Assembly: GCA_002315015.1 (NCBI GenBank)
Contig: DCEX01000035.1
Location: 46,411 to 110,410 of the forward strand
DNA length: 64,000 nucleotides
Reading direction: 5' to 3'
Source of the DNA: Faecalibacterium sp. UBA1819
Lineage (GTDB): Bacteria; Bacillota; Clostridia; Oscillospirales; Ruminococcaceae
Shown here: in pieces, positions 33,065-47,325 of the stretch
Position numbering within the stretch: the stretch's first letter is position 1
Layout of the letters: each line of letters starts with the position of its first letter
Position numbers and translations under genes: made by a program
Notes under the pieces: generated by a model
Database searches by the model: none
Told to the model about the DNA's origin: nothing
The model's input: the letters and a program-made list of their open reading frames with translations, nothing else

Positions 33065-34321
33065 TCACTCTTTCCAGACATCGGGGTAAATATCCGAAGC
33101 AATGGGAATATAATTCGGAATGGAGTTTTCGTAATCACTTTTGGAAATCATGGCGTACTGCGAATCATAGCGCTCTATTTCGTATCCCATTTCGTCTACT
33201 TCCACAAGGCTGGCCTTCCAATCCGTTTGAACCAAAAAAGAATCCTTCGTTTCTGCAAAAGGTTCAATGATACTATGGTTATATGGCCTAAAAAGAGTAA
33301 AGGGGTGATATTCCCCGCTTTCTATATCAAATACAACATCATAATGCTTTGCTTCCTCGCCGCTGAAATCCATGAAATTTAAGCGCAGAATACCCGGCTC
33401 TATCACCGACACACCAACATCGGGCTCGAGCGTTCCATCGATAGAGGCCGCAACGGGTGCATAATCCACTGTTTGGGTTTCTTTTGTTTCTAAATCCAAA
33501 ATCTCAATTTTCTGCTCGGGATATTTTACGCGATACAGTTCGCCATCTTCCACAAACGCCGCTTCGTTTTCCACATCTAAAACGACCAGTGCCTCCTCGT
33601 CCATCTTGCCGGTATCCAGGTTCAAAAAGCACTGGTCGGAATAGACATTGTGCTGCTCATCCATTCGGCAATGCGAAATGACAAGATTTCTGCCCCATGC
33701 GCCGCTCAGGGTCGCCGCGTAGTCCTCTTTGCCAAAGGTATAAATTTCGGTTAGACTTCCGTCCTGCAAGCTGACCTTGACAATCTTTTTCACGATGTCA
33801 GCGGTGTCTGGGATGTTCTGTTCGGCCATCATGTAAAGATTCTGCCCATCGTGATAAACAGGAGTCGATACCCGGCAGTCCGCCGGAAATTCCATCAAAA
33901 GCCGGCGGTTCGCTCCGTTTTTATCGGCGAGCTGAATATTGCCCGGCATTATCCCATTTTCCGTCTGTTCCGTCATTGAAAACAGCACCAAACTGTCATT
34001 GATTACATAAGGAATCCCTTTCACATGGGAGCGGCAGCTTTCCGTATCGTGCGTACAGCCGGGCTGTTCACACAAAAAAATCTGTTTTTGGGAATCGAAA
34101 TCAAAATAAGTGAGATTGACGTTTGTTTTGTCTGTGTAAAATATCTCTGTCTGATAACAACCATCTTCGGTATAAGATTGACACAGGGTTAACGGCGCGT
34201 TGGAGGTGTCTGCGTTGTTTACCGTTTCAGATGCGTCATTTTGTGTGCTTTGGCAGGCACTGAGTATTGCAGCCATCGCCAAGACACCCACAAGTAATTT
34301 CCAAACAGAATGTTTTTTCAT
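33065..34321 (-). CDS. Lipoprotein of uncharacterised Cys/His-motif family, paralogue D
   Basis: 418 residues, surface lipoprotein (MKKHSVWKLLVGVLAMAAILSAC; lipid on Cys23). The N-terminal region carries CEQPGCTHDTESC, a C-x4-C-x-H-x2-E-x-C motif shared by all four paralogues nearby, and the C-terminus ends AMISKSDYENSIPNYIPI. In between are repeating hydrophobic/GxxLY strands (GQNLYMM, DGELYRVKYPE) suggesting a beta-propeller-like fold (DUF5050-like). Function unknown; the Cys/His set could bind a metal or form disulfides. First gene of the PadR-regulated operon with the ABC-2 transporter. ATG 34321 has GGGGAG upstream. Confidence 0.75.
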   Translation of the reverse strand: MKKHSVWKLLVGVLAMAAILSACQSTQNDASETVNNADTSNAPLTLCQSYTEDGCYQTEIFYTDKTNVNLTYFDFDSQKQIFLCEQPGCTHDTESCRSHVKGIPYVINDSLVLFSMTEQTENGIMPGNIQLADKNGANRRLLMEFPADCRVSTPVYHDGQNLYMMAEQNIPDTADIVKKIVKVSLQDGSLTEIYTFGKEDYAATLSGAWGRNLVISHCRMDEQHNVYSDQCFLNLDTGKMDEEALVVLDVENEAAFVEDGELYRVKYPEQKIEILDLETKETQTVDYAPVAASIDGTLEPDVGVSVIEPGILRLNFMDFSGEEAKHYDVVFDIESGEYHPFTLFRPYNHSIIEPFAETKDSFLVQTDWKASLVEVDEMGYEIERYDSQYAMISKSDYENSIPNYIPIASDIYPDVWKE

Positions 34322-34348
34322 GCTCTCTCCCCTTTTCATCGGACTAAA

Positions 34349-34394
34349 TGTAACAATATAGTTACAGAATAACCTAGTTTCTGATATTTGTCAA
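34349..34394 (-). promoter_or_regulatory. PadR-regulated promoter of the lipoprotein/ABC operon
   Basis: Minus-strand TTGACA (34389-34394), 17 bp, TATTCT (34366-34371). Touching the -10 box on its downstream side is the palindrome TGTAACAATATAGTTACA (34349-34366), TGTAAC-N6-GTTACA, the size and form of PadR-family operators. It covers the transcription start, so binding should repress. Confidence 0.82.
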
Positions 34395-34426
34395 CAAATA
34401 ATATCTGAACTTTCACAAATCAAACA

Positions 34427-34455
34427 TTGAAATTCTCTGCATTTTTTTGTATAAT
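34427..34455 (+). promoter_or_regulatory. Promoter of the padR-like gene
   Basis: TTGAAA (34427-34432), 17 bp, TATAAT (34450-34455). It gives a very short leader of about 15 nt before the GTG start. Confidence 0.8.
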
Positions 34456-34476
34456 TTAATCATAGGAGTGAGATAT

Positions 34477-34875
34477 GTGGAACAATCGTCTTATCAACCC
34501 AAAAAACGAAGCGGCACGGTTGCCGGCATGAAAGAAGGGCTGAAAAAAGCTACCACTGAAATGCTAGTTCTTTTTCTGTTAAAGCAAAAATCCATGTACG
34601 CTTATGAAATGATTCAGGAAATGGCGCGGCTATCTGATGGAATGCTTCGTTTCAACACCCTGTATCTTGCTATTTACCGCTTGCAGGAACACGGCTATAT
34701 TGTGCCGTCGGAAACGATGGTCACCCAAAGCAACCGCACGCGCGTATACTTTACCATTACGCAAGAGGGTCTTGCCTATCTTGACGGCATCACGGCAGAA
34801 TATCATCGGTTTGTTGAAACCCTTGACAAAATGATGGCCGCAGACGGCAAGATTTATGAGGACGAAAACGACTAA
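34477..34875 (+). CDS. PadR-family transcriptional regulator
   Basis: 132 residues. Winged-helix core: TTEMLVLFLLKQKSMYAYEMIQEMARLSDG (helix-turn-helix), TLYLAIYRLQEHGYIVPSE, VYFTITQEGLAYL, then a short helical dimerisation tail. Start taken as GTG 34477, 6 nt after AGGAGTGAG; this also fits the promoter at 34427-34455. Divergent from the lipoprotein/ABC-2 operon, whose promoter carries a matching inverted repeat. PadR regulators in Firmicutes often release such transporters in response to membrane-active compounds. Ends in a shared terminator. Confidence 0.88.
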   Translation: MEQSSYQPKKRSGTVAGMKEGLKKATTEMLVLFLLKQKSMYAYEMIQEMARLSDGMLRFNTLYLAIYRLQEHGYIVPSETMVTQSNRTRVYFTITQEGLAYLDGITAEYHRFVETLDKMMAADGKIYEDEND

Positions 34876-34920
34876 CTGCCCATTTTTCCCGCGACACCCC
34901 ATTCCAAACGGAACAGCTTC

Positions 34921-34956
34921 AGCCCGTCCAGCAATTCGCCCGGACGGGCTTTTTTC
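34921..34956. terminator. Bidirectional terminator between padR-like gene and lipoprotein C
   Basis: AGCCCGTCC pairs with GGACGGGCT, followed by TTTTTT. Confidence 0.88.
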
Positions 34957-34959
34957 GGT

Positions 34960-36258
34960 TCACTGTGCCGTATCCACCAAAGCATAATTGGGCTGGTTGT
35001 TCCAATAGTCCGCTTTTGCCATCAAAGCATATTGATAAGACAAAGACGGCATTGGCAGCGTTGTTCCATCTGAAGCCGAAATATTCACCATTTCTACACG
35101 CGCAGCGGGCGAAACCAAAAGATTGTCCCCGCATTCTGCCAGAACGAGCAGCGGCGTTTCGTGCATGGTATCCTGTGTTTTTAGTGTCAGCTCCACACTT
35201 GTTTTGTTCGTCAAATCAAACGCAAAATATTGCGTTGCAGAAGTCGTTTCCCCCACTGTAAGCGCCTCATAAATCAACCGGTCATCTATTTTATCTTGGA
35301 ACTGAACCGCAGTAAAGGGAGCTTTCGGGCTGCCAAGCGTTCCCAAAACGGTTTTTGTTCCACTTGTGCAGTCCACCGCACTTAATTCACAGGAAGCTGG
35401 GTCAAAGAGATAGAACTGGTCTGCAAATACACGCCCAACGCACGGCGGCTTCCAAGATACAATTTCTTCTGCGCTTTGGCTGGATAGGCTATATTGCACC
35501 ACTGCGTCTTTCTCTCCGCCGGAAGTGCTGTCCACAGTGCGCACAAGCAGGCTATCCGCTGTGCATCCTTCCAGGTAAGCCCCTGCATTCTCAAATGTGT
35601 ACAGCACGGTATAATTTTTTTGTTCTAAGTCAAACTTAATTAACTGACGCTGTGATAACACCGTTTGGCCGCCTTCGTCTATCTGGGTTTGGGAGCAAAT
35701 GGCGTAAAAACTTGTGTCGTCTGTCACAAAAGGCGATTCAAACATCATACCATCCGGCAAGGAAATTACCTTTTCTTTCCCTGTACCATCTAGTGCCATC
35801 GCCTCAATATAAGGCTCTGTGGCATTTTCCTGCGCGATGCTGTCATTGGAACCATTCACCGCCAAAACAAGCCGCTGACCCACAACCAACGGCAACATTC
35901 CGCCGCCTGTGTAAGCATACCACGCACTGCAAGTTTCATCTTGATGCACACAGCTGGGCGAACTGCACAGCGGTACACGCGTTTTTGTGGCATAATCGGT
36001 ATACATGAGAATTACGCTGCCGTCCAGCAAAGTATGGTAGTCGTAATAGCCGTCAGAACTTGCTGCTCCCGGCCCGCTGTGCGGATTGACAAAGGAGAGT
36101 GAACTTTCAAACACTTTTTGCGCTTCCTCTTGCTGCGGCTGGCTTTCCGGCAAAGCAGAGGAAGCTTCTCCTTGTACCGATTCCTGCGCGGTACACGCAC
36201 AGCAAACTCCCAGTAAAAGCACTGCCAACAGAGTAGTGAACCATTTTTTCTTTTGCAT
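34960..36258 (-). CDS. Lipoprotein of uncharacterised Cys/His-motif family, paralogue C
   Basis: 432 residues. The signal peptide ends LLLGVCCAC with a lipobox-like Cys and is followed by a Gln/Glu/Ser linker. The family motif reads CSSPSCVHQDETC near residue 100 and the C-terminus ends with ALMAKADYWNNQPNYALVD. Repeated strands such as GQRLVLAVNGSND and DRLIYEALTVGE suggest a propeller-like fold. It is the most divergent intact paralogue. Its ATG overlaps the stop of the frameshifted paralogue B by one base, so the tandem genes are coupled. Function unknown. Confidence 0.72.
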   Translation of the reverse strand: MQKKKWFTTLLAVLLLGVCCACTAQESVQGEASSALPESQPQQEEAQKVFESSLSFVNPHSGPGAASSDGYYDYHTLLDGSVILMYTDYATKTRVPLCSSPSCVHQDETCSAWYAYTGGGMLPLVVGQRLVLAVNGSNDSIAQENATEPYIEAMALDGTGKEKVISLPDGMMFESPFVTDDTSFYAICSQTQIDEGGQTVLSQRQLIKFDLEQKNYTVLYTFENAGAYLEGCTADSLLVRTVDSTSGGEKDAVVQYSLSSQSAEEIVSWKPPCVGRVFADQFYLFDPASCELSAVDCTSGTKTVLGTLGSPKAPFTAVQFQDKIDDRLIYEALTVGETTSATQYFAFDLTNKTSVELTLKTQDTMHETPLLVLAECGDNLLVSPAARVEMVNISASDGTTLPMPSLSYQYALMAKADYWNNQPNYALVDTAQ

Positions 36259-37380
36259 TATGCGTTTCCTTTCAGCGAGATTCCTTCAATTGGGACATAG
36301 TTCGGCGTTGAGTTGTAGTAATCCGATTTTTCAATCAGTGCATACTGAAAATACAGATACGGGAGTGTCATAGGCGGGTCGGAGTCCGGCAGCGTCACTT
36401 CTTGATCTGCAACTGATTCAATCACCAAAAAATAGTCGTCCAGCTCGTCCACAATTTCCACCTGTTTTCCTACGCCTTTGCGAATAGTTTCCAAAGGGGC
36501 GTTTGGCGTGAGCTGCTGTTTTAGCAATGTTGACCCAGACAAGTTATACATATAGTAATATCCATTATATACTCGCCCTAAAGTTGTAAACGGATGTGAC
36601 AAAAGCACGCCTTCCTCTTGTGTATCCACATCATAAGATACGATTTTTGTTTCAATGCCGCCGGCATCCTCTGTAATGTCCTGTGCGCCGTCGCTAATAT
36701 TTAAAATTAAGCTTCGCCCGTTCACTCCAACAATCTGCTCGGATGGAGACAGTTCTTTCCGCTTTTCTAAATTTTTGGATTGAATGTCGTAACGGTACAA
36801 ACTTCTCGTTCGCAAATCACCATTGACCCCGTTTTCATAGGAATCACAAACAAAATAAATGGCGTTATCGTCGTATGCAATCCCCTGCCGAACCTGTTCA
36901 AAGGCATTCAATTTTTGCCTTACTATATGATTTGCACCGTTTAAATCCATTTCTATCATTTGGGGCAAAGCATCCTCGCCCAGCCGCTGTGCAACGCCGG
37001 GGGTGGTGTTGCCGAACGAGAGGTAAAACAGATGATTCCCCGCTGTCAATAACGCACCGCCGCCACCGCCGTAGGGCAACCAAGAAGTGCAGGTTTCGTC
37101 CTCATGCAGACATTCGGGACGGTTGCACAAAAACACCTGCGAACGTGTAGTCAATAAATGCCATGTTGTTCGAGCCATCGCTTCGCGGAATGATGCAATA
37201 ATAACCGTTTTCCGCCCCAGTTCCATCCCCTTCCCGCATAAAATCTATAAATGAAAGCGCTGTTCCATCCTGTGCAGGTTCCTCACTTCCTTGAGGAGCC
37301 TTGGTGCTGCATGAACTGCATAAACACAAGATTGCCGCCACAACACCCAGCGTGCGCGTGATTGTTTTATAAAATCTCAT
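36258..37380 (-). pseudogene. Lipoprotein of the Cys/His-motif family, paralogue B, frameshifted
   Basis: The frame opened at ATG 37380 gives a lipoprotein signal (MRFYKTITRTLGVVAAILCLCSSC) and continues to NNMAFIDY. The family motif CNRPECLHEDETC and the rest, ending ALIEKSDYYNSTPNYVPI, lie in another frame. Comparison with paralogue C (TDYATKTRVPLC against IDYTTRSQVFLC) places a single-base loss near 37145-37153. The remainder (about 300 residues) is undamaged, so this is a recent mutation, a sequencing error or a programmed event; nothing in the local sequence suggests a slippery site. Confidence 0.8.
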
Positions 37381-37437
37381 CGTTTTCCTGATTGCAATGT
37401 CAGTACAAAAGTATCTCAAACACTGTTGTCCCACGTT

Positions 37438-38709
37438 TTATTCTGTTGATTTGTTCCACGCATCGGGATAAATATCAGAAGCAATGGGGATATAATTCGG
37501 AATGGAGTTTTCATAATCGCTTTTGGAAATCATGGCATATCTCGCTTCATATTGCCGTGTTTCAACGCCTAATTCATCGACATCGACGACACTGCTGATC
37601 CAATCGGTCAGAACCAAAAAAGAATCGTCGGTTTCCGCCAACCGCCTGATGATATCGTTGTTATGCGTTCTCAAAAGAGTAAAGGGGTGGTATTCCCCGT
37701 TTTCTATATTGAACACAACACGATGAAACTTTGTTTCCTCACCGCTGAAATCCAGAAACTCCAAAAGCAGTAAATTTGGCCCCATCACAGATACCCCCAC
37801 ATCGGGCTCCAACGTTCCGTCGATAGACGCTGCCACAGGTGCATAATCCACCGTTTGGGTTTCTTTCGTTTCTAAATCCAAAATCTCAATTTTCTGCTCG
37901 GGATATTTTACGCGATACAACACACCATCCCCGACGACTGCCCCTTCGTTTTCCGCATCCAAAACAGCCAATGGCTCCTCGTCCATCTTACCGGTATCTA
38001 GGTTCAAAAAGCGTTTGTCCCAATAAACATCGTGCTTCTCACCCATGCGATAATGTGAGATGATAAAGTTTCTGCCCCATGCTCCGCTCAGGGTCGCCGC
38101 GTAATCCTCTTTGCCAAAGGTATAAATTTCCGTTCGTTCCCCGTCCTGCAAGTTGACTTTCATAACCTTTTTGATCATGTCACCGGTGTCTTTGCTGGTC
38201 TGCTGGGTCATCATATAAAGGTTTTGGCCATCGTGATAAACCGGGGACAGCACCAAACAATCCGCCGGAAATTCCATCAAAGGGCGGCGATTCGAGCCGT
38301 CTTTATCGGCAAGCTGAATATTAGGCGGTTGACTTTCTGTTGCCCCCATCTGCAAAAGAACCAAGCCGTCATTGATCACATACATTTGCGGAATTGCCGT
38401 CATATAGGAGCGACAGCTTTCTGTATCGTGCGTACAGCCGGGCTGTTCACACAAAAAAATCTGTTTTTTAGCAGCGAAATCAAAATAAGTTAAATTGGCA
38501 TTTGTGCTGTCTGTATAGAACATGTCGGCCAGATAGCAACCGTTTTCATCATAAGACTGACACAGCGTTAGGGCAGCATCCGAAGCCGCCGCGTTATTTG
38601 TGGTTTCCTGTGTGGCGGAGGTATTGTTCTGTGTACTTTGGCACGCACATAGTATTGCAGCCACTGCAACAGTTAACAGAGTATTTTTCCAAACCAAGTG
38701 CTTTTTCAT
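37438..38709 (-). CDS. Lipoprotein of uncharacterised Cys/His-motif family, paralogue A
   Basis: 423 residues, clearly a duplicate of paralogue D (identical stretches such as YRVKYPEQKIEILDLETKET and FGKEDYAATLSGAWGRN), with lipobox AAILCAC, the motif CEQPGCTHDTESC and the end AMISKSDYENSIPNYIPI. AGGAGTG lies 6 nt before ATG. It is second in a minus-strand series that begins with a small secreted protein under an agr-type promoter. A stem-loop separates the two. Function unknown; membrane-tethered extracellular role expected. Confidence 0.75.
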   Translation of the reverse strand: MKKHLVWKNTLLTVAVAAILCACQSTQNNTSATQETTNNAAASDAALTLCQSYDENGCYLADMFYTDSTNANLTYFDFAAKKQIFLCEQPGCTHDTESCRSYMTAIPQMYVINDGLVLLQMGATESQPPNIQLADKDGSNRRPLMEFPADCLVLSPVYHDGQNLYMMTQQTSKDTGDMIKKVMKVNLQDGERTEIYTFGKEDYAATLSGAWGRNFIISHYRMGEKHDVYWDKRFLNLDTGKMDEEPLAVLDAENEGAVVGDGVLYRVKYPEQKIEILDLETKETQTVDYAPVAASIDGTLEPDVGVSVMGPNLLLLEFLDFSGEETKFHRVVFNIENGEYHPFTLLRTHNNDIIRRLAETDDSFLVLTDWISSVVDVDELGVETRQYEARYAMISKSDYENSIPNYIPIASDIYPDAWNKSTE

Positions 38710-38783: not shown

Positions 38784-39299
38784 TTACAGTGCCGGTGAAC
38801 CGGAGGCAATCCATGCAGAAGATCCTCCCGGTGCAAAATAAACAGTAGCTCCGCTGTAATCACCGGAATATCTCAATCCTTCAGTATAGTTTAAAAGATT
38901 TACCAATCTTGTTTCATCTGGGTAAGGCAGTTGAAAAGCTGAGTCAACAGCTCCGTCTGCCAAATTCCACATGATTGCAGCCTTTCCCCCTGCCACACTA
39001 TTAAGTGAGCGGTTAATGGCGTATGTTGTTCCATTCTGTAACCGAGTTAAATACATGCACTGCTTACTCCTAGATTCTCCATAAACCACAGTAAATTGCT
39101 GATCAATTGACGGCATTTTTGTCCATAAAGTGAGCTTACGTCCCTTCATAGGACTTCCTGTGTTTCCATAGATATTTAATGCGTTAGAGGAAGTGTTTGC
39201 AATATAAGCCGGCTCTAATGTCCAATCCGCAAACGCAGGCACCGCCATAGCAGCAGCCATCACTGCACAAAGAGCCACGGTCAATAATTTCTTTTTCAT
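38784..39299 (-). CDS. Small secreted protein, ricin-B-lectin-like pattern
   Basis: 171 residues. Signal peptide MKKKLLTVALCAVMAAAMAVPAFA, mature part of about 147 residues without cysteines other than one near KQCMYL. ALNIYGNTGSPMKGRKLTLW followed by DQQFTVVY, and later YAINRS...KAAIMW followed by DSAFQLPY, resemble two repeats of the beta-trefoil (ricin B) pattern with its Q-x-F/W signature. The third repeat is not evident, so the assignment is tentative. AAAGGAG lies 7 nt before ATG. Driven by a promoter with LytTR-type direct repeats identical in layout to the one at 42.7 kb; thus a probable quorum-sensing target. Confidence 0.65.
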   Translation of the reverse strand: MKKKLLTVALCAVMAAAMAVPAFADWTLEPAYIANTSSNALNIYGNTGSPMKGRKLTLWTKMPSIDQQFTVVYGESRSKQCMYLTRLQNGTTYAINRSLNSVAGGKAAIMWNLADGAVDSAFQLPYPDETRLVNLLNYTEGLRYSGDYSGATVYFAPGGSSAWIASGSPAL

Positions 39300-39429: not shown

Positions 39430-39498
39430 ATTGTACCAGTGCTTTCTACAAATTTCAATCGTTTTTGCGCAAATGACATGTTTTCGTGCCTAAATGCA
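39430..39498 (-). promoter_or_regulatory. agr-type (LytTR) activated promoter of the secreted-protein gene
   Basis: On the minus strand: box 1 TGCATTTAGGCA (39498-39487), box 2 GTCATTTGCGCA (39477-39466), starts 21 bp apart; a 7-bp gap; TTGAAA (39458-39453); 17 bp; TACAAT (39435-39430). The same distances occur at 42732-42800. Two direct repeats one double helical turn apart just upstream of -35 are the known layout of AgrA/LytTR sites. Confidence 0.8.
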
Positions 39499-39530: not shown

Positions 39531-39575
39531 CAAAAAAGAGAGCGTAATTGTATTTCTGCACAAGTACGCTCTCTA
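39531..39575 (-). terminator. Terminator of the agr operon
   Basis: AGAGAGCGTA pairs perfectly with TACGCTCTCT; the minus strand continues with TTTTTTG. Confidence 0.88.
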
Positions 39576-39691: not shown

Positions 39692-39847
39692 TTATTTTTC
39701 ATCTTGCCCGGCATCCTTTTCCGGTCTGGGCGGTTGATAAAAGCCCCATGGTGTACTCGGAACTTTCGCTTCCATTTCATTTTTAATTAAATTTTGTACC
39801 ATATTTTTTACCGCTGCTGAGATAGAAATTTTACGTTCCATATTCAT
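39692..39847 (-). CDS. AgrD-like autoinducer propeptide without cysteine
   Basis: 51 residues from ATG 39847 (or 49 from ATG 39841), 20 nt after agrB, with AAGGAG just upstream. It has the three-part AgrD layout: an N-terminal amphipathic helix (KISISAAVKNMVQNLIKNEM), a short hydrophobic core (VPSTPWGFYQ) and a charged, proline-containing tail (PPRPEKDAGQDEK) of the kind AgrB cuts off. There is no Cys anywhere. The only nucleophiles in the core are Ser29 and Thr30 (numbering from 39841), so the ring would be a lactone on Ser, as in the enterococcal FsrD/GBAP peptide. The predicted signal contains STPWGFY. Called from position and layout, not from family similarity. Confidence 0.75.
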   Translation of the reverse strand: MNMERKISISAAVKNMVQNLIKNEMEAKVPSTPWGFYQPPRPEKDAGQDEK

Positions 39848-39867
39848 TTTCTCCTTCAAGCATTATT

Positions 39868-40434
39868 TTATTGTATTCCAAGGCCCAATCTGCTAAGACA
39901 TATTGTAAAAGCTGTTATAAAAACAGAAAGCGCTAAATCAGCTGCGATATGTTGCGCAGCCTTCATACTTACAAGCACAGCTAATATCATGATGAACAAG
40001 CGCTTATGAACACTTTTTGTTAAATTGGCCCTTTCCTCATCGGTGATATGAATATTTTTATTATCAACCGGAGATAAAATCAAAATAATGACAGCTGATA
40101 AGGCCAGCACCAAAAGCAACCATACTTGGTGCTGAAAAATCGGCAAAAGCAAGAATAGCGAGCCAACTTGAATTAAAACCGCAGAGATTAAACATTGGAA
40201 CGGCGTATGCGCATGATATCCTCCGGTTCTGGTACGAAGAAATCGATAACCCAAGGTAAATAAGAGCGAATTGACCCAACCTGCCAATATTGCTCCAATC
40301 GGAACTAAAACCAAAAGGGACACCACATTCATCATTCGATGCATAATCATGTATCGGCACCATTCTTTTTGCCCGTCTTCAATGAGATTCGCTTTTAAAA
40401 AATAGTTTGTTAAAGCCTCTGCTGCTTTTTCCAA
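39868..40434 (-). CDS. agrB: AgrB-like membrane peptidase/cyclase
   Basis: 188 residues with about five membrane helices. AgrB enzymes cleave the C-terminal tail of AgrD and close the (thio)lactone ring. The catalytic pair is present: His74 in TRTGGYHAHTPFQC and Cys81, 7 residues apart as in the staphylococcal enzyme (His77/Cys84). It starts at TTG 40434 with GGGAGG 7 nt upstream. It follows the kinase gene by 30 nt and precedes the AgrD-like gene by 20 nt, so the whole RR-HK-AgrB-AgrD set is one operon, in an order unlike staphylococcal agrBDCA. Confidence 0.92.
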   Translation of the reverse strand: MEKAAEALTNYFLKANLIEDGQKEWCRYMIMHRMMNVVSLLVLVPIGAILAGWVNSLLFTLGYRFLRTRTGGYHAHTPFQCLISAVLIQVGSLFLLLPIFQHQVWLLLVLALSAVIILILSPVDNKNIHITDEERANLTKSVHKRLFIMILAVLVSMKAAQHIAADLALSVFITAFTICLSRLGLGIQ

Positions 40435-40464
40435 ATCTTCGCCTCCCTTGTCGAAATATTTGCC

Positions 40465-41781
40465 TTAGTGATGTTCCGGCCATTCGACGCTAAACACGAA
40501 TTGCCCATTTTCATAATAAAAGTCGTAGTCTGCCTGATATTTTTTCAAAATGTCCTGCACATTGCGCAGCCCGAACCCATGAAAAGAGGCGTTTTCCTTG
40601 GTGGTCGCAATCTGTCCGCTGCTGATTTTCACGAATGGGCTGGCATTCAGCACCGACAAAAACAAACTGCCCGGCTCTTCTTCCTCCGCTGGGGTATAAG
40701 TCACGCTCACTTGAATCCATCGTTCGCGTTCGGGCAGCTTTTCGCACGCCTCGATTGCGTTATCCAATAAGTTTCCGAGAACCACGGTGCAGTCTGTTTC
40801 CTTGATTTTCATGCCGGATAGGTCGTTCACCTCAAAACGAATATCAATCTTGTTTTGCTGCGCCGCCATTCCCTTTTGGTTTAAAATAGCATCTACTGCT
40901 GCATGGTGGGTATCCACCAAAAGGATACGCTCTGTGCTGTCGCGCCGAAGCTGTGAAAGATAGCTGCTTGCCTGCCCAGCGTTTCCGTTTTTCAGCAAAT
41001 CGCTCAATACGCTTAAATGCTTTTGAAAATCGTGCGTCATTTTTCGCTGGGTTTGGTATGCTGCGCTTAACGCACTGATACTTTCCTTCTGCGTGCGCTC
41101 CCGCTCTTTCAGCACCACCAACATCTCATGCTCACGGATGCTTTTTTTCATGTAATCTCTTGAAAACAACACCGCAAGATTGCACACAACAATCAAACTA
41201 AGTGCAATAACCGCATAAGGGTTTTCCTCACTTTTTGATGCACCGGCTACAAGGGCATCATAAAAAAAGGATAAAAGTACTATGGAAGAAAGCGGAAACA
41301 GCAAAGAAAGCGCCGTCCATTTCCTTGCACTTGTTCCTTCATCCGCTGGTTTATGGAACAAACTAATCGAAAATGCAAACAGCATGGCGGCAAGAATCCG
41401 AACAAACATCTGCGTTGTCACCCTAGTATAATGCTGCTCGAAAAAGTCAACTTGAAAAACGATTTGCCCCGCAAAAATAACGATATCATCTATCGCAGAA
41501 AATAAGGCATAACTCATAGCCGCTATAAAAAGACGGTAAATAGGCTCTCCCCGATAGAGTACCGCCAGCACCAAATAAAAGAGCAGTACCATAGCCACTG
41601 CTTGAACATCCTTGTAAAAATCACCGCCAACCTGTAACAGAAGGTGAAATACCACACCAAATGCCGCAACACACAACCAAAAAGAATCGGCCTGATTATT
41701 TCTCGGCAAAAAAGCGTCAAAAAACACAATAACGGCCAAATATTGCAGCAAATGAAATACTATATCGACTGCATACTCCAT
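40465..41781 (-). CDS. AgrC-like GHKL sensor histidine kinase
   Basis: 438 residues: six or seven membrane helices in the first ~210 residues (for example VFHLLQYLAVIVFFDAFL, ALSLLFPLSSIVLLSFFY), a coiled-coil linker, the phosphoacceptor His in MTHDFQKHLSVLSDLL, the N-box LGNLLDNAIEAC and the G-box HGFGLRNVQDILKKY. Typical AgrC/peptide-pheromone receptor (HPK10) layout with no separate sensor domain. ATG 41781 follows GGAGAGGG and overlaps the end of the regulator gene by 22 nt. It should bind the cyclic peptide made by AgrB/AgrD and phosphorylate the LytTR regulator. Confidence 0.92.
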   Translation of the reverse strand: MEYAVDIVFHLLQYLAVIVFFDAFLPRNNQADSFWLCVAAFGVVFHLLLQVGGDFYKDVQAVAMVLLFYLVLAVLYRGEPIYRLFIAAMSYALFSAIDDIVIFAGQIVFQVDFFEQHYTRVTTQMFVRILAAMLFAFSISLFHKPADEGTSARKWTALSLLFPLSSIVLLSFFYDALVAGASKSEENPYAVIALSLIVVCNLAVLFSRDYMKKSIREHEMLVVLKERERTQKESISALSAAYQTQRKMTHDFQKHLSVLSDLLKNGNAGQASSYLSQLRRDSTERILLVDTHHAAVDAILNQKGMAAQQNKIDIRFEVNDLSGMKIKETDCTVVLGNLLDNAIEACEKLPERERWIQVSVTYTPAEEEEPGSLFLSVLNASPFVKISSGQIATTKENASFHGFGLRNVQDILKKYQADYDFYYENGQFVFSVEWPEHH

Positions 41782-42491
41782 CGCTTCATCCCTCTCCAGC
41801 GCAGATACTCCTGCTTGAGCTTGCTGTAATTTCGGGTGCTGATTGCCAGCTGGGTATCGTCCGTCAAGCACACTCCTGTACTTTTCATCGTTTTGATATA
41901 CGCCATATTTACCAAAAAGCTTTGGTGAATGCGGAGAAATCCATGGGGAGACAACAGCTCCTCTAACGCATTCATTGTCATTCTCACGTCGCAGGTATCC
42001 CGCTTGTCGTGAATGAGGTGAAGGAAAAGATGGCGCTGCTGGGTTTCCGCATAAGTAATGTGTGCCGGCATCAGATCCACTTCTTCACTGCCGCTAGATA
42101 AGCGAATCACACGACGCTCCTTTTTATATGCGGCAAGCGCTGCTTGCAGGCATTCGGGAAGTTTTTCGTCCAAATTGCTTTTCAGCAAATATCTCAGCGC
42201 CTTCACTTCATACCCTTCCAAACTGTATTGCACATAGTGCGTTACAAACACTAAAATGGCATCCGGCTGTGCCTTGCGGATTCTCTTGGCCAGTTCAAGG
42301 CCATTGATTTCCCCCATATCAATGTCCAAAAAAATAATATCACACGGAATTTTTTCGATGCTCTTCATTTCATTTTCATCGCAAACACATTGAATACTCG
42401 CGGTTTGATTCAGATTTTTCAACTGTGTTTCTAAGCATTCTTTTAAGTGAAGTGCAAACTCCAATTCATCATCGCAAATTAAAAAATTCAT
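41760..42491 (-). CDS. AgrA-like response regulator with LytTR DNA-binding domain
   Basis: 243 residues. Receiver domain with CDDE, phosphoacceptor Asp56 in FLDIDM, and LVFVTHYVQYSLEGYEVKALRYL. The C-terminal LytTR domain (VIRLSSGSEEVDLMPAHITYAE ... LLSPHGFLRIHQSFLVNMAYIK) binds paired direct repeats. First gene of the operon; promoter at 42659-42687. The repeats found at 39466-39498 and 42732-42764 are the likely targets. No such repeats occur at its own promoter in the equivalent place, so this operon may not be autoactivated in the usual way. Confidence 0.93.
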   Translation of the reverse strand: MNFLICDDELEFALHLKECLETQLKNLNQTASIQCVCDENEMKSIEKIPCDIIFLDIDMGEINGLELAKRIRKAQPDAILVFVTHYVQYSLEGYEVKALRYLLKSNLDEKLPECLQAALAAYKKERRVIRLSSGSEEVDLMPAHITYAETQQRHLFLHLIHDKRDTCDVRMTMNALEELLSPHGFLRIHQSFLVNMAYIKTMKSTGVCLTDDTQLAISTRNYSKLKQEYLRWRGMKRWSMQSI

Positions 42492-42731: not shown

Positions 42732-42800
42732 TGCAAATACGCACATTTTTCCTGCATATACGCAATAACTATAGACATTTTACGCTTGAATTTGTATAGT
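42732..42800 (+). promoter_or_regulatory. agr-type (LytTR) activated promoter of the secreted DUF2712-like protein
   Basis: Box 1 TGCAAATACGCA (42732-42743), box 2 TGCATATACGCA (42753-42764), starts 21 bp apart; 7-bp gap; TAGACA (42772-42777); 17 bp; TATAGT (42795-42800). The distances match the minus-strand promoter at 39430-39498 exactly. The rest of 42492-42901 is AT-rich divergent regulatory DNA with the agr operon promoter. Confidence 0.85.
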
Positions 42801-42901
42801 AAAAATCAACATAAGCGCTTATATCAAACAAAATCTTTAGTTAAAAAGATAGATGGGCTATCATTTCTCGATGATAGTTTCTATGAATGGAGGTTCAAGC
42901 T

Positions 42902-43333
42902 ATGATCTGTGTAAAAATGAAAAAAAAGCTTATATCTTGTTTAGCAATTCTGGCAATTTCCGTAATGGGTGCAATGACCGCATTTGCCGCTAATAACGTT
43001 GATACAGGATTTCAGTTTAACTTTAGTGCCGGTCAACCAAGGCGTACTGAATGGCGCGCAAAAAAAGATTCGAGCAATGTTTATATGTCCGTGCAGGGTC
43101 TTACAGGTGGATTTACTGCACATGTAGTTGGCTCAAGCAGTAACTTAAACTCAGGTATGGGCATAGACTGTTCTCGTGGCTATACCTATAACATTGCGTC
43201 AACCGGTGTCTATAGAATGCGAAATTGGGTTTATGATGGTGCACCTGGATACGGGTATGCCGCCGTTTATGCTTCTCCCAATTATGGATATGGATACAGC
43301 GCGTGGGGCGTGTGGAGCCCAGATTCAATCTAA
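42902..43333 (+). CDS. Small secreted protein, DUF2712/lactococcin-like pattern
   Basis: 143 residues. Signal peptide MICVKMKKKLISCLAILAISVMGAMTAFA; mature protein of about 114 residues rich in Gly, Tyr, Asn and Ser (NVDTGFQFNF at the mature start, then YGYAAVYASPNYGYGYSAWGVWSPDSI at the end as short pieces YGYAAVYASP and YGYSAWGVW). The mature start NVDTxFxF and size resemble DUF2712 proteins, whose genes often sit with ABC transporters in bacteriocin-like loci. ATG 42902 lies 8 nt after TGGAGG. Under the second LytTR-type promoter, hence likely induced by the agr signal. Toxin, bacteriocin or surface role all possible. Confidence 0.68.
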   Translation: MICVKMKKKLISCLAILAISVMGAMTAFAANNVDTGFQFNFSAGQPRRTEWRAKKDSSNVYMSVQGLTGGFTAHVVGSSSNLNSGMGIDCSRGYTYNIASTGVYRMRNWVYDGAPGYGYAAVYASPNYGYGYSAWGVWSPDSI

Positions 43334-43341
43334 ATAAGGAA

Positions 43342-43403
43342 ACTGTCAGCTCACACCTTCGAATGGGATTTTATTCTAATGCACGTGAGCTGACAGTCTT
43401 TTT
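43342..43403 (+). terminator. Terminator after the secreted DUF2712-like gene
   Basis: ACTGTCAGCTCAC pairs perfectly with GTGAGCTGACAGT (30-nt loop), followed by CTTTTT. Partial readthrough into the ABC operon is possible. Confidence 0.85.
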
Positions 43404-43486
43404 AATGAAACTATCTAAAAAATTTATGGCAGGCTTAATTCCAATTAGTTAGCCTCAATTCCAATTTAAATCATGAGGATCAAACA

Positions 43487-44272
43487 ATGTTCAGAAAATA
43501 TTATTCAGCAATTTTATCTGCAAGCTTATTGTTATCCGCTTTGACAGCCTGCGGTACACAAGCGGCGCCGTCAGCCGCTTCAAGCGCATCGACAATCGCC
43601 CAGCAGACGAACGAATCTCAGCTTCTTGTAACAGATATCAAGGGGAACAGCCGCGATTTAGCACAGCTTCCGTGGGCCAAAAAATACCCATCGATGCTGA
43701 AGCATTATGAGGGCCAAACCAGCGAAAACCTGACGGATTTTATATTTCCCACCATGGCACAAGAAAATCTGATTGCGAAAGGTGCAGCAATGGATATACC
43801 GTTTCGAGATGGTTCTCTGCGCGTGACGATGCAAGAGGCAGTCAAAGGACCGGAGCCTTCCGGTATCTCTGCCGAAAAAGTCGCGCAAGGTGAGCAGGCG
43901 CTCGGCACACTTCCCGAGGGTGAGGAATATCTGACCGTTACTCTCTCGATTGAAAACACCGGCAGCAGCGAAGCTGACTTTTATCTAAATAATATTTCCA
44001 TTCGTTGCTGTGTTGACGGCACAGTTGCACAAGGCCATATCGGCAGTGAGGCAGTGACGTCCGACCTTCCTGCCGTGGCAGAAAATGCCAAAAATCAATT
44101 TGAAGCGTTACTTGCCCCAGGCGAAAAGGCTTCTTACAAAATTTTATACTATGTGAACAGCGAAATTGAACTGCAAGATCTGTACCTTTATCCCAATTTA
44201 GCCGGGGAAGGTGTTGCAGAAGTAACCACAGCCGATTTTGCGTTAGATCAGCAATGGCTGGCACTGGAATGA
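43487..44272 (+). CDS. Lipoprotein with a DUF4352-like domain, head of the ABC operon
   Basis: 261 residues. Lipoprotein signal MFRKYYSAILSASLLLSALTAC, Ala/Ser-rich linker, then an immunoglobulin-like beta domain: YLTVTLSIENTGSSEADFYLNNISIRC and APGEKASYKILYYVNSE, a pattern seen in DUF4352/telomeric-repeat-type accessory lipoproteins. Surface exposed. It stands 13 nt upstream of three membrane proteins and an ATPase, in the operon next to the DUF2712-like gene. Such lipoproteins often serve as immunity or transporter accessory factors; not proven here. Confidence 0.6.
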   Translation: MFRKYYSAILSASLLLSALTACGTQAAPSAASSASTIAQQTNESQLLVTDIKGNSRDLAQLPWAKKYPSMLKHYEGQTSENLTDFIFPTMAQENLIAKGAAMDIPFRDGSLRVTMQEAVKGPEPSGISAEKVAQGEQALGTLPEGEEYLTVTLSIENTGSSEADFYLNNISIRCCVDGTVAQGHIGSEAVTSDLPAVAENAKNQFEALLAPGEKASYKILYYVNSEIELQDLYLYPNLAGEGVAEVTTADFALDQQWLALE

Positions 44273-44285
44273 ATCGAGGAATGAT

Positions 44286-45110
44286 ATGAAAGAACTGCTG
44301 CAATTTGAACTCAAGCGTTGTTTTCACGGAAGAAAGTTTTTATTTGCATTGACAGCCGGTGCTGTAATTTCTATTTGCCATATAATTTTCAGCGTTTTAC
44401 CGCTGGTGCAATGGCTCGATGGCTGGCAGGGGGATCTATTTTTAACGCCGCATTCTGTGTACGGGCACTGGATTGGGATGGATGCTGCTACCATCTGGCC
44501 AACGCTGCTCTATCTGCTTTTTCCGCTTTTTGCCGCTTTGCCTTGTGCTGATTCTGCATTTTGGGATTTTCATTCGGGGTATTGCATGCAAATTATTGCA
44601 CGCGGAAAAAAACGTCATTATGTTTTTGCAAAGTGGATCACCATTTTTCTTTCCGGCGCACTTGTCGTTTTGGTAACGCTTTGCTTTGACTTCGCGCTCT
44701 GTTGCCTTTTTCTTCCGATGGTTCGTCCGGAGGCGCTGACCAATCTTTACGGCATCAACGACCGTAGCTTTTTAACCCAATGGTTTTACCGTATGCCCTT
44801 GCTTTACACGGCTGTGTATATTGTGATGGATGCCGTTTTCATCGGCGCATGGGGATGTTTGGTTTTGGCATCGTCCGTTTTACTTCCAAACAGGCTGCAA
44901 TCTGCAATCACCCCGTTTCTTTTTTATCTGCTCACTTACTTTGTTTTCAACTGGCTTCATTTTGACCGCTTTGCGCTGTTTGCCATTGCGCTTCCGTTTC
45001 AGCCCGCGCAAGACGTTTCATTACTTACCTTTTTTGTATACATTTTTGTGGTTCCTGCCCTTTCCTTCTTTTTCTATTTCAAAAAAAGGGAGCGGTCTGA
45101 TGTACTTTAA
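44286..45110 (+). CDS. Membrane protein, probable ABC-2-type permease subunit 1
   Basis: 274 residues, about six membrane helices (FALTAGAVISICHIIFSVL, IWPTLLYLLFPLFAALP, FLSGALVVLVTLCFDFALCC, and others). CADSAFWDFHSGYCMQIIARG resembles the ABC-2 coupling region where E/D..G appears between helix 2 and 3. It overlaps the next gene by 11 nt, showing coupled translation. With two similar-sized membrane proteins and one ATPase it forms a probable exporter or immunity transporter. Confidence 0.7.
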   Translation: MKELLQFELKRCFHGRKFLFALTAGAVISICHIIFSVLPLVQWLDGWQGDLFLTPHSVYGHWIGMDAATIWPTLLYLLFPLFAALPCADSAFWDFHSGYCMQIIARGKKRHYVFAKWITIFLSGALVVLVTLCFDFALCCLFLPMVRPEALTNLYGINDRSFLTQWFYRMPLLYTAVYIVMDAVFIGAWGCLVLASSVLLPNRLQSAITPFLFYLLTYFVFNWLHFDRFALFAIALPFQPAQDVSLLTFFVYIFVVPALSFFFYFKKRERSDVL

Positions 45111-45882
45111 GCGAACCGGGCGCATGTTCCTTTGTACCAGCAAACGGCTGCCAGGGCTTTCAGTTCTGCTGGCCGCCGTGACATGCGGAAATATTTTATA
45201 CTGGATCACACGATGGCAAAACTCTGGTGTGGTGCTTTGTTCCATGGATGTTTTTCTTTGTGTCCTGCATCCATCTTTTTTATTTATGATTTTTGTTCCG
45301 TTTTGCTTGCTTGCAGAAATGGCTGGCAGCCGTTTTTTCACAGCGCCGCACATTTGCCGCTTGTTTCAAAACAGAGGACAAATGATACAGCAAATGATTT
45401 CGGATACCGTCATACGGACTGTGCTTTTTGAACTGATTATTATAATTTGTGCGCGCTTTATGGCATTTGTTTTATTTGGTACACATTTGACCATAAATTG
45501 GGCACAGCCGCAAAGCAGATATTGGCATGACACAGGCCACCGATTGCAGCAAGCCCTCACGCCGACAAGCTTCATCCTTTGGCAAGGGCTTGCCGCATGT
45601 ATGGTGGGCATTATTTTCAGCCTTGCTTTTCAAATTGCAGTCCACTGCTGCCGGAATATTCGCAGCGGCAATGCGGTTGGATGGCTTCTTTGCCTTTGTG
45701 CCGCTTGGAGCATTTCATTCCCCATTTCACCAGCACTTTCAGAATTACAGCGTGTTGTAACATTTTCCACTTTGACAATTCAAAATCATGCGGTTGGCCT
45801 TTATTTCTTGTTTGGCGCTGTTTTGATTGTTGTTGAATGTGCTGGGCTGGGTATCGTCATCGCAAGGAGAGATTTCCTGTGA
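45100..45882 (+). CDS. Membrane protein, probable ABC-2-type permease subunit 2
   Basis: 260 residues with about six membrane helices (VLLAAVTCGNILYWITRW, VLHPSFLFMIFVPFCLLAEM, FELIIIICARFMAFVLFG). ATG 45100 has AAAGGGAGCGG upstream and overlaps the previous gene; an upstream in-frame codon at 44830 would overlap that gene by 280 nt and is rejected. No known family recognised beyond general resemblance to ABC-2 subunits. It overlaps the next gene by GTGA. Confidence 0.65.
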   Translation: MYFKRTGRMFLCTSKRLPGLSVLLAAVTCGNILYWITRWQNSGVVLCSMDVFLCVLHPSFLFMIFVPFCLLAEMAGSRFFTAPHICRLFQNRGQMIQQMISDTVIRTVLFELIIIICARFMAFVLFGTHLTINWAQPQSRYWHDTGHRLQQALTPTSFILWQGLAACMVGIIFSLAFQIAVHCCRNIRSGNAVGWLLCLCAAWSISFPISPALSELQRVVTFSTLTIQNHAVGLYFLFGAVLIVVECAGLGIVIARRDFL

Positions 45883-46691
45883 CAGATTTCACTTTTTGGC
45901 GTCTTTTCCGGCGCGATTTACAAAATTATTTTCGGATCAATCGGTTCCATGTTTTGATTGTTATCGGCTTGTTTTTCATCGGCGCAATGACCGCAGATTC
46001 ACAGCTTTCGATACAACAGTTAAATTACGGTGTGATGGATTATTTTATCATGCTGTTTCGAGGCTCTTACCCTTTTACCGAAACACAAAACGGGATGTTT
46101 CAACTTCCCCTAACTTGGTTTATCTTAATTTATTTTTGTGTTTATACCGCTGTGATTTATCCGGCCCAAGAACAAAACGGGGCAAGTACACATTATCTCC
46201 TTCGGGCAAAAAGCCGTACTTCATGGTGGCTGTGCAAATGTTTTTCGCTTGTGGTTTGGGTGGCATTTTATTTTTTCTTGGGGTTTGCTTGCCTTTTGGG
46301 ATTTATCCTCGCTTCGGGGCGTCCGCTTCGCTTGTCATCCGCGCTTGTACCGGATCAGACGGCATGTGTTTTCCTGTGTTCTCTTCCTATCTTGTTTGCT
46401 GCATTATTAGCCGTATTTTGTCTGTGCTTGTGCATGTTTTTCAACTTTTGGATGGCACAGGCGGCGGCTGTGACCTGCCTTGTGTTAATTGCATTTGTGC
46501 AAATTCCGTATTTTCCCGGCAATTATTCTATGCTGATTCGATGCCGCTTACTTACACCCGGCGGGCTAGAAGAATCAACAGGCATTTTTCTTCATGTAAT
46601 TTTGATTGCTTTGCTGTGGGCAGCAGGCAGTTTATTCTTTCAAAAAATGGATATCCTCCCCAGAAAGAAAGGCGATATAAATGAAAATTGA
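45879..46691 (+). CDS. Membrane protein, probable ABC-2-type permease subunit 3
   Basis: 270 residues, about six membrane helices (FHVLIVIGLFFIGAMTA, WFILIYFCVYTAVIYPAQ, VVWVAFYFFLGFACLLGFIL). AQEQNGASTHYLLRAKSRTSWW is a good ABC-2 coupling segment. It starts at GTG 45879 (AAGGAGAG upstream), sharing GTGA with the previous stop, and overlaps the ATPase gene by 11 nt. Three different membrane subunits for one ATPase is more than most ABC-2 systems have. Confidence 0.68.
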   Translation: MTDFTFWRLFRRDLQNYFRINRFHVLIVIGLFFIGAMTADSQLSIQQLNYGVMDYFIMLFRGSYPFTETQNGMFQLPLTWFILIYFCVYTAVIYPAQEQNGASTHYLLRAKSRTSWWLCKCFSLVVWVAFYFFLGFACLLGFILASGRPLRLSSALVPDQTACVFLCSLPILFAALLAVFCLCLCMFFNFWMAQAAAVTCLVLIAFVQIPYFPGNYSMLIRCRLLTPGGLEESTGIFLHVILIALLWAAGSLFFQKMDILPRKKGDINEN

Positions 46692-47325
46692 ACTTTGTCA
46701 GGTTTCCAAAACGATACAAGGACAGCCTGTTCTTTGTGACATAAACCTTTGCTTTGAAAATAAATCTTGCGGAAAAATTTATGGAATACAAGGCATCAAC
46801 GGCAGCGGAAAAACGATGCTGATGCGTATGATTTGCGGGTTTATTCTTCCGACACAAGGACAAGTAAAAATTGACGGGAAAGTCATCGGAAAAGACCTTT
46901 CCTTTCCCCCGGATATCGGCCTTCTTTTGGAAAATCCCATTTTCATTGATGAGTTTACGGGTTTCAAAAACCTTTCGCTCTTGTGTGGAATCCGCAAAAA
47001 AGTTTCCGAGCAGCAAGTTATGGATACTTTGAAGCGTGTAGGGCTTGACCCCAATGATAAACGTGTATTTCACAAATATTCGCTTGGCATGAAACAGCGC
47101 CTTGGCATTGCGTGCGCTATTGTTGAATCACCCAATTTGATTTTACTGGACGAACCCTTCAACGCCTTGGATGAATCGGGCGTGGAACAAGTACACAGCT
47201 TGTTAGATGAATTGCGCCAAGAAGGAAAGCTCATTCTACTGGCTTGCCACGACCGCCAGCAAATGGAGTCCTTGGCAGATGAAATCATCCGGATGTCCGC
47301 AGGACACATTATCAACGAGCAGTAA
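46681..47325 (+). CDS. ABC transporter ATP-binding protein
   Basis: 214 residues. Walker A GINGSGKT, signature KYSLGMKQRLGI, Walker B LILLDEPFNALDE and H-loop LACHDR are complete. Powers the membrane subunits encoded just upstream. Close in type to ATPases of bacteriocin immunity and lantibiotic-protection (LanF-like) transporters. Confidence 0.92.
   Translation: MKIELCQVSKTIQGQPVLCDINLCFENKSCGKIYGIQGINGSGKTMLMRMICGFILPTQGQVKIDGKVIGKDLSFPPDIGLLLENPIFIDEFTGFKNLSLLCGIRKKVSEQQVMDTLKRVGLDPNDKRVFHKYSLGMKQRLGIACAIVESPNLILLDEPFNALDESGVEQVHSLLDELRQEGKLILLACHDRQQMESLADEIIRMSAGHIINEQ

Follow-up and report, generated by a model that had tools for sequence, protein, structure and literature searches.

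The window analyzed here (64,000 nt of contig DCEX01000035.1 from Faecalibacterium sp. UBA1819) carries on its minus strand a four-gene agr quorum-sensing operon whose AgrD propeptide contains no Cys. From sequence comparison, the autoinducing peptide (AIP) made from this propeptide is most likely a lactone pentapeptide, Thr30-Pro-Trp-Gly-Phe34, closed through the side chain of Thr30. The source genome (G000) is a 2.25 Mb draft in 36 contigs. The features of the operon are as follows.

41760..42491, minus strand: AgrA-like response regulator (receiver and LytTR DNA-binding domain), 243 amino acids (aa); Pfam/NCBIfam matches
40465..41781, minus strand: AgrC-like membrane sensor kinase with a GHKL domain, 438 aa; Pfam/NCBIfam matches
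39868..40434, minus strand: AgrB membrane cysteine peptidase/cyclase, 188 aa, His74/Cys81 intact; Pfam AgrB
39692..39841, minus strand: Cys-free AgrD propeptide, 49 aa, MERKISISAAVKNMVQNLIKNEMEAKVPSTPWGFYQPPRPEKDAGQDEK; ribosome-binding site, three homologues, agrB-adjacent position of the family
39740..39754, minus strand: codons of the predicted ring Thr30-Pro-Trp-Gly-Phe34, the tail starting with Tyr35-Gln-Pro; invariant Thr30, ring-closing column, Clostridium thermocellum register
39537..39574, minus strand: intrinsic terminator hairpin 3' of agrD, followed by a T run; 10-bp outer stem
42687-42659, minus strand: promoter-like TTGACA-17-TATTCT; promoter scan

A complete agr operon with a Cys-free propeptide

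The AgrD open reading frame (ORF) has an AAGGAG site of its own. This site lies 9 nt 5' of the ATG of the 49-aa form (MERK...) and only 3 nt from the ATG of a 51-aa form; because of this spacing, we favored the shorter one. The ORF has no Cys at all and shows the AgrD layout: a helix (judged by eye), a core and a Tyr/His-Gln/Glu-Pro-x-x-Pro tail. Three close homologues were listed in a search of 5.8 billion proteins (80-88% identity, E-values from 1.1e-16 to 1.5e-21). Two of them, P0001 and P0002, are near-identical, and P0002 has one Cys, located near its start and outside the core. The core of the window peptide reads STPWGFYQP, while those of the homologues read NTTWGFYQP (two sequences) and NTPWGFYQP. 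All three homologues retain Thr-x-Trp-Gly-Phe-Tyr-Gln-Pro; Thr30 is invariant (4/4 sequences), and the position of Ser29 is occupied by Asn in 3/3 homologues. An earlier note on this DNA had named lack of core conservation among relatives as grounds for rejecting its reading, and both Thr30 and WGFYQP turned out to be retained. Peptides of similar type also follow agrB in related genomes. Given these peptides and the three homologues, the ORF is no chance frame, and the description of an AgrD-like ORF lacking Cys and having its own AAGGAG site is confirmed for what is a true gene.

The AgrD of close relatives evolves under protein-level conservation. The three pairs tested are of Ser or Cys type, none being of Thr type. 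Synonymous (dS) and nonsynonymous (dN) divergence amounted to 0.635 and 0.095 for relatives L012/L013 (Ser type), 0.755 and 0.130 for L015/L017 (Cys type), and 1.668 and 0.078 for L105/L116 (Cys type).

The remaining genes are supported by family matches. The regulator matches Pfam LytTR (7.2e-16) and Response_reg (5.6e-13). Its match to NCBIfam quorum_RR_AgrA (1.1e-11) is below the cut-off, as are the better-scoring models of other LytTR regulators, BtsR (2.1e-19) and LytR (7.4e-17). The kinase matches Pfam HATPase_c_5 (4.8e-19), and its top NCBIfam match is HisKinAgrCStaph (1.3e-10, residues 56-359, below the cut-off). AgrB matches PF04647 (2.5e-27). Its catalytic pair, His74 and Cys81, was correctly described as intact in the earlier note; both residues are unchanged across alignments of 11 and of 27 AgrB sequences. 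In the PDB, no solved AgrB relative was found by sequence at E-values up to 1.

All four frames are unbroken, and ribosome sites precede agrB and agrD. The ATG of the kinase gene lies inside the 3' end of the regulator gene (a 22-nt overlap), and the kinase-agrB and agrB-agrD gaps are 30 and 26 nt. The hairpin 3' of agrD has a folding energy of -19.4 kcal/mol (z -5.70; 0/200 shuffles equally stable). The promoter scan returned 12 promoter-type matches compared with a shuffle mean of 8.0 (standard deviation 3.2), that is, few above chance. The previously proposed complete operon at this place on the minus strand is thus borne out, all four genes being found there with Pfam support. Considering an AgrB with its catalytic pair, an AgrC-like kinase and an AgrA-like LytTR regulator in the same operon, and an AgrD ORF beside agrB, we regard the locus as almost certainly a genuine agr operon.

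The gene order had been taken as new, which can be ruled out, as relatives share the order regulator-kinase-agrB-agrD. The regulator is upstream of the kinase and agrB in six tallied loci, five of which have this full order. The sixth, L039, was tallied without agrD only because its copy L011 was scored for AgrD; the AgrD of L039 itself is visible. Other orders in the tally (duplicates included) have the regulator after agrB (6) or agrD before agrB (16). Two Gemmiger loci, L040 and L041, have Ser-type agrB-agrD pairs and no window-like kinase or regulator in the 4 kb of DNA retrieved to either side; their receptor is perhaps elsewhere.

Residues at the ring-closing column

To compare AgrD cores, we numbered columns relative to the Pro of Tyr-Gln-Pro (position 0), which puts the ring-closing column at -7. 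Small ORFs beside agrB were picked by the tail motif alone; positions -2, -1, 0 and later were constrained and -7 was left free. AgrB searches matched 4/11 genomes of the genus, 83/396 of the family, 9/35 of one related genus and, with a strict cut, 7/394 of the order; a named genome collection added 8 loci. Sixty further family AgrB places were taken by E-value, skipping places already covered as well as G067:C12 and G209:C42. Altogether, 110 distinct agrB loci yielded 79 kept candidates at 77 loci; 31 loci had none under the motif rule and 2 had spurious candidates only (manual curation ahead of the count discarded 8 of the 87 raw candidates). The survey is no unbiased census, because it was drawn by likeness to the window AgrB.

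Column -7 in the 78 distinct agrB-adjacent cores is occupied by Cys in 39, Ser in 27 and Thr in 6, while the remaining 6 have Cys one residue earlier (the column itself being Pro in 3, Ser in 2 and Thr in 1). By plain count, Cys, Ser or Thr stands at -7 in 75/78 cores; for the rest of the -11 to -3 range, the count per column is between 5 and 32 of 78. Another Cys occurs later in the core in 8 of the 27 Ser cores and in 2 of the 6 Thr cores. The search for Ser-only cores beside related agrB genes, suggested in the earlier note, gave a positive answer. Ser-type AgrDs are common in the family loci surveyed and Thr types are rarer.

A profile search of the protein database found 259 relatives, and the figures given here come from the best 120 of them. 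P0101, whose motif reads YPP, was excluded. Among the resulting 86 distinct cores, 33 have Ser at the column and 5 more have Ser with a further Cys; the corresponding numbers for Thr are 12 and 5. The rest consist of 6 cores with Cys, 21 with Cys one residue earlier and 4 others. The 12 Thr and 33 Ser cores are free of Cys at the column, at the preceding position and over the following five. The Thr-type P0066, named Gemmiger formicilis in its source, is listed from at least 1000 contigs.

Each of the three agrB loci found in the window genome has an AgrD whose column residue bears a hydroxyl: Thr in the window, Ser in L003 and, in L001, Ser plus a Cys two positions further on. Such an extra Cys two residues past the column Thr or Ser is seen in L010 (TACGM), L038 (TMCGL) and L001 (SLCGM), where the ring could retain a free thiol inside. 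A genus-wide AgrD profile search of 35 genomes gave 11 AgrD places, 11/11 of which adjoin agrB; 2 of 13 agrB places had no AgrD match.

Ring register and alternative readings

A precedent for the proposed register is the C. thermocellum AgrD Clo1313_2818, for which liquid chromatography-tandem mass spectrometry revealed a Ser25-Phe29 lactone pentapeptide, followed by Tyr30 and a conserved Pro35 (PMC5322536). The spacing equals that of Thr30-Phe34, Tyr35 and Pro40 in the window peptide. Based on this register, the ring is predicted to end at Phe34, and Tyr35 should lie outside it, in the cleaved tail. The two systems differ in the closing residue (Ser in C. thermocellum, by prediction Thr in the window) and in genomic setting: the C. 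thermocellum agrD reportedly lies outside any agr operon and has no identified cognate agrB, agrC or agrA (PMC5322536).

Ser lactones are on record for Staphylococcus pseudintermedius, Enterococcus faecalis and C. thermocellum (among PMC12312760, PMC3673130, PMC13220807, PMC10885120, PMC4916163 and PMC5322536). As in the window, the central Cys in the agr system of S. pseudintermedius is swapped for a hydroxyl residue, giving a lactone (PMC12312760, PMC3673130); that residue, however, is Ser, and the staphylococcal order is agrBDCA in contrast to A-C-B-D in the window. E. faecalis FsrD/GBAP (gelatinase biosynthesis-activating pheromone) shares agr-like processing and an oxygen lactone, but has Ser, a nine-residue ring and the order fsrBDCA (PMC12312760), with fsrD nested in fsrB in another frame (PMC3673130). 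The window has Thr at the column, a predicted five-residue ring and a separate agrD that starts 26 nt after agrB. The earlier view of FsrD/GBAP as the main exception among thiolactones was too narrow, considering the other two Ser lactones and the common Ser-type AgrDs of the survey. Likewise, the claim of a new peptide fails for a Ser lactone, which has precedent, and stands for closure by Thr, which is the new part. A close parallel in the survey is with the Ser/Thr-type AgrDs of Gemmiger and relatives (L012/L040, L013/L041, L051 and P0066), which have Ser or Thr at the same column. The Gemmiger-type layout is WPPx[S/T]xxxxYQPxRP, whereas the window peptide and its three homologues are without the WPP motif. 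We found no paper on AgrD in Gemmiger in the open literature.

With Thr30 at the place of the central Cys of classical thiolactones, an oxygen lactone through Ser or Thr, as the earlier note had proposed, is supported as the likely signal, although on sequence grounds. Its choice of Ser29 as the attachment point and of STPWGFY as the core did not hold. A lactone through Ser29, as a six-residue STPWGF or a seven-residue STPWGFY ring, has some parallels: 6/78 AgrD cores put Cys at the place of Ser29, six-residue AIP rings are recorded (PMC12312760, PMC4916163) and P0119 carries Ser at the earlier place. Nevertheless, we consider it unlikely. Ser29 gives way to Asn in all three homologues, and the two closest database AgrBs are 96% and 87% identical to that of the window; the nearest relatives in the AgrB tree, L010 and L038, have Leu or Tyr at this place and Thr next to it. 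Thr30, by contrast, is invariant and matches the column occupied by Cys, Ser or Thr in 72/78 cores. Moreover, a ring including Tyr35 would break the C. thermocellum register, which ends the ring at Phe34 (PMC5322536).

A quite improbable alternative is that AgrB processes the peptide, which is then released linear or cyclized otherwise. Cyclization here is predicted rather than observed, and the homologue P0031 has Ile at the column. Yet a linear peptide would have no need for a column that is Cys, Ser or Thr in 75/78 cores, and in C. thermocellum a linear control peptide was inactive where the cyclic one acted (PMC5322536). Least probable of all is that the locus is decaying or that another peptide serves this AgrB: the match to the AgrD model is under its cut-off (see below) and, among the 4/11 genus genomes with an AgrB match, the window AgrB is present in its own genome only (next best 34% identical), but none of the four frames is broken, agrB and agrD each have a ribosome site, the homologues keep Thr-x-Trp-Gly-Phe-Tyr-Gln-Pro, the ORF list (inspected by eye) has no other AgrD-shaped small ORF around agrB, and agrD follows agrB in 9/9 loci of the AgrB clade of the window (window included).

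Several observations weigh against a ring closed by Thr30. Secondary hydroxyls are less nucleophilic than thiols. The curated AgrD model TIGR04223 matches the window peptide at 12.8 bits (E-value 0.1), under the 19-bit cut-off, with residues 30-42 aligned to profile positions 23-35; of 15 aligned family members, 8 match this model at E-values up to 10 (best 2.8e-5). A neighbouring AgrB is indicated only indirectly, and for one of the three homologues: P0003 and the 87% identical AgrB, P0122, each come from one contig, 12309 long, suggesting adjacent genes. With Ile at the column and no Cys, P0031 is either a nonfunctional copy or a peptide that is processed in another way. The 86 cores include three further misfits: P0115 and P0120 with shortened cores and P0119 with Ser one residue earlier. 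The 6/78 loci with Cys one residue earlier indicate that the ring start can shift by one, and L005, an AgrB locus of the same genus, yielded no AgrD under the tail-motif rule. Finally, among the papers listed in searches of the open literature, titles and abstract openings revealed no Thr-closed AIP, a scope too narrow to show absence from print.

By analogy with the known agr/fsr pathway, we infer the following course for a Thr30-closed signal. AgrB would cut the propeptide after Phe34 and keep the peptide bound to Cys81 as an acyl-enzyme. Thr30, filling the role that Cys (in some systems Ser) has elsewhere, would then attack the acyl-enzyme bond with its side-chain hydroxyl to form the five-residue ring Thr30-Pro-Trp-Gly-Phe34. 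The Tyr35-Gln-Pro... tail would be thrown away, the N-terminal helix trimmed by another protease, and the ring exported with or without a few N-terminal residues. The GHKL kinase would sense the ring, and the LytTR regulator would activate the operon and probably the flanking genes for secreted proteins.

Thr-type AgrDs in the AgrB phylogeny

The closest named AgrB loci carry the titles Subdoligranulum, Pygmaiobacter and Gemmiger. In a tree of 77 AgrBs built with a quick method, the four core types are strongly clustered (11 changes compared with a shuffled mean of 32.8; 0/200 shuffles as low), and one large, mostly Ser branch is distant from that of the window. In a more careful tree of 29 rows, the window groups with the Thr-type L010 and L038 (support 91/87), whose AgrBs are 38-41% identical to it. 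This trio sits in a nine-row clade (97/96) comprising 4 Thr, 4 Ser and 1 Cys types, to which the AgrBs of L012, L013 and L051 also belong. Outside the trio, Thr occurs in L051 and L058, and in L117 in the wider tree.

As a test of a single origin for Thr, holding all five Thr rows of the 29 in one clade is rejected (p-AU, the P-value of the approximately unbiased test, 0.009). Once the long-branched L058 is dropped, this constraint is no longer rejected (p-AU 0.076). Thr is retained across AgrBs of only 38-41% identity and has probably been gained more than once.

Flanking genes and candidate regulator sites

Genes for secreted proteins flank the operon on both sides.

38784-39299, minus strand: secreted protein, signal-peptide-like
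42887-43333, plus strand: secreted protein, signal-peptide-like, weak DUF2712 match (0.013)
42733..42763, minus strand: candidate regulator-binding site, two 10-bp repeats with a 21-bp period, in the gap that separates the operon from the divergent gene for a secreted protein; suggestive only
39467..39497, minus strand: second candidate, 5' of the gene for the secreted protein at 38784-39299; suggestive only

These two proteins would be the likeliest quorum-sensing targets and are candidate outputs of the operon. Relatives of the 38784 protein occur near other agr loci, with weak matches in L040 (1.7e-7, about 2.7 kb from agrB) and L058 (6e-4) and weaker ones in the second agr locus of the genome (3e-3) and L007 (8e-3). 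The 42887 protein weakly matches an ORF in L039/L011 (8e-6). The E-values apply to a small database made up of the ORFs of the retrieved loci. The relative in the second agr locus has a ricin-type beta-trefoil match (8.6e-6); the 38784 protein itself has no Pfam match.

Both 31-bp candidate sites end 8 nt before a promoter-like -35 element, reading into 42887-43333 (plus) and 38784-39299 (minus), respectively. They are the sole exact matches in the window to the pattern drawn from them; with 3 mismatches allowed, the pattern has 16 matches versus 15.95 by chance. In a joint shuffle test, 6/200 shuffles were as good, and the top pair was not exactly the two candidate sites. A 9-of-10 repeat arises in 7.5% of shuffled operon upstream regions, and in the second site the repeat reaches just 8 of 10. 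A look upstream of the regulator genes in five relatives (L038, L039, L042, L043 and L044), as well as in six further upstream stretches of secreted-protein genes, revealed no 9-of-10 repeat. These statistics are modest, and the two remain suggested regulator sites.

Further out, in 42887-47325 (plus strand), the gene for the secreted protein is followed by one for a protein with weak likeness to DUF2705, by other ORFs and by an ABC ATPase gene. The agrBD genes of L039 are similarly followed by a related secreted protein and additional large ORFs. On the other side, 33065-38709 (minus strand) has a run of four lipoprotein-like genes that resemble one another (33065-34339, 34960-36258, 36258-37226 and 37438-38709), which share a Cys-x-His-x-x-x-x-Cys-like motif (by eye) and have no informative Pfam match. 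A PadR-type regulator is encoded at 34447-34875 (plus strand).

Implications

Descriptions of AIP chemistry come almost entirely from the Cys thiolactones of pathogens among the Firmicutes, plus a few Ser lactones. An AgrD search that requires Cys at the usual column or one residue before it would miss 33 of the 78 survey cores, 23 of which (23/78) have no Cys anywhere from -8 to -2. We think it likely that Thr-lactone AIPs exist in nature and add a third kind of ring to Cys thiolactones and Ser lactones, that they arose more than once, and that Ser- and Thr-linked signals account for a large part of agr signalling among Gemmiger-like bacteria of the gut and in the family to which these belong. 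If Thr lactones are indeed formed, AgrB-type enzymes would take three ring-closing residues at one place, and their specificity would be directly testable through a single-residue change. Lactones withstand thiols better than thiolactones do, and this resistance may suit the anaerobic gut.

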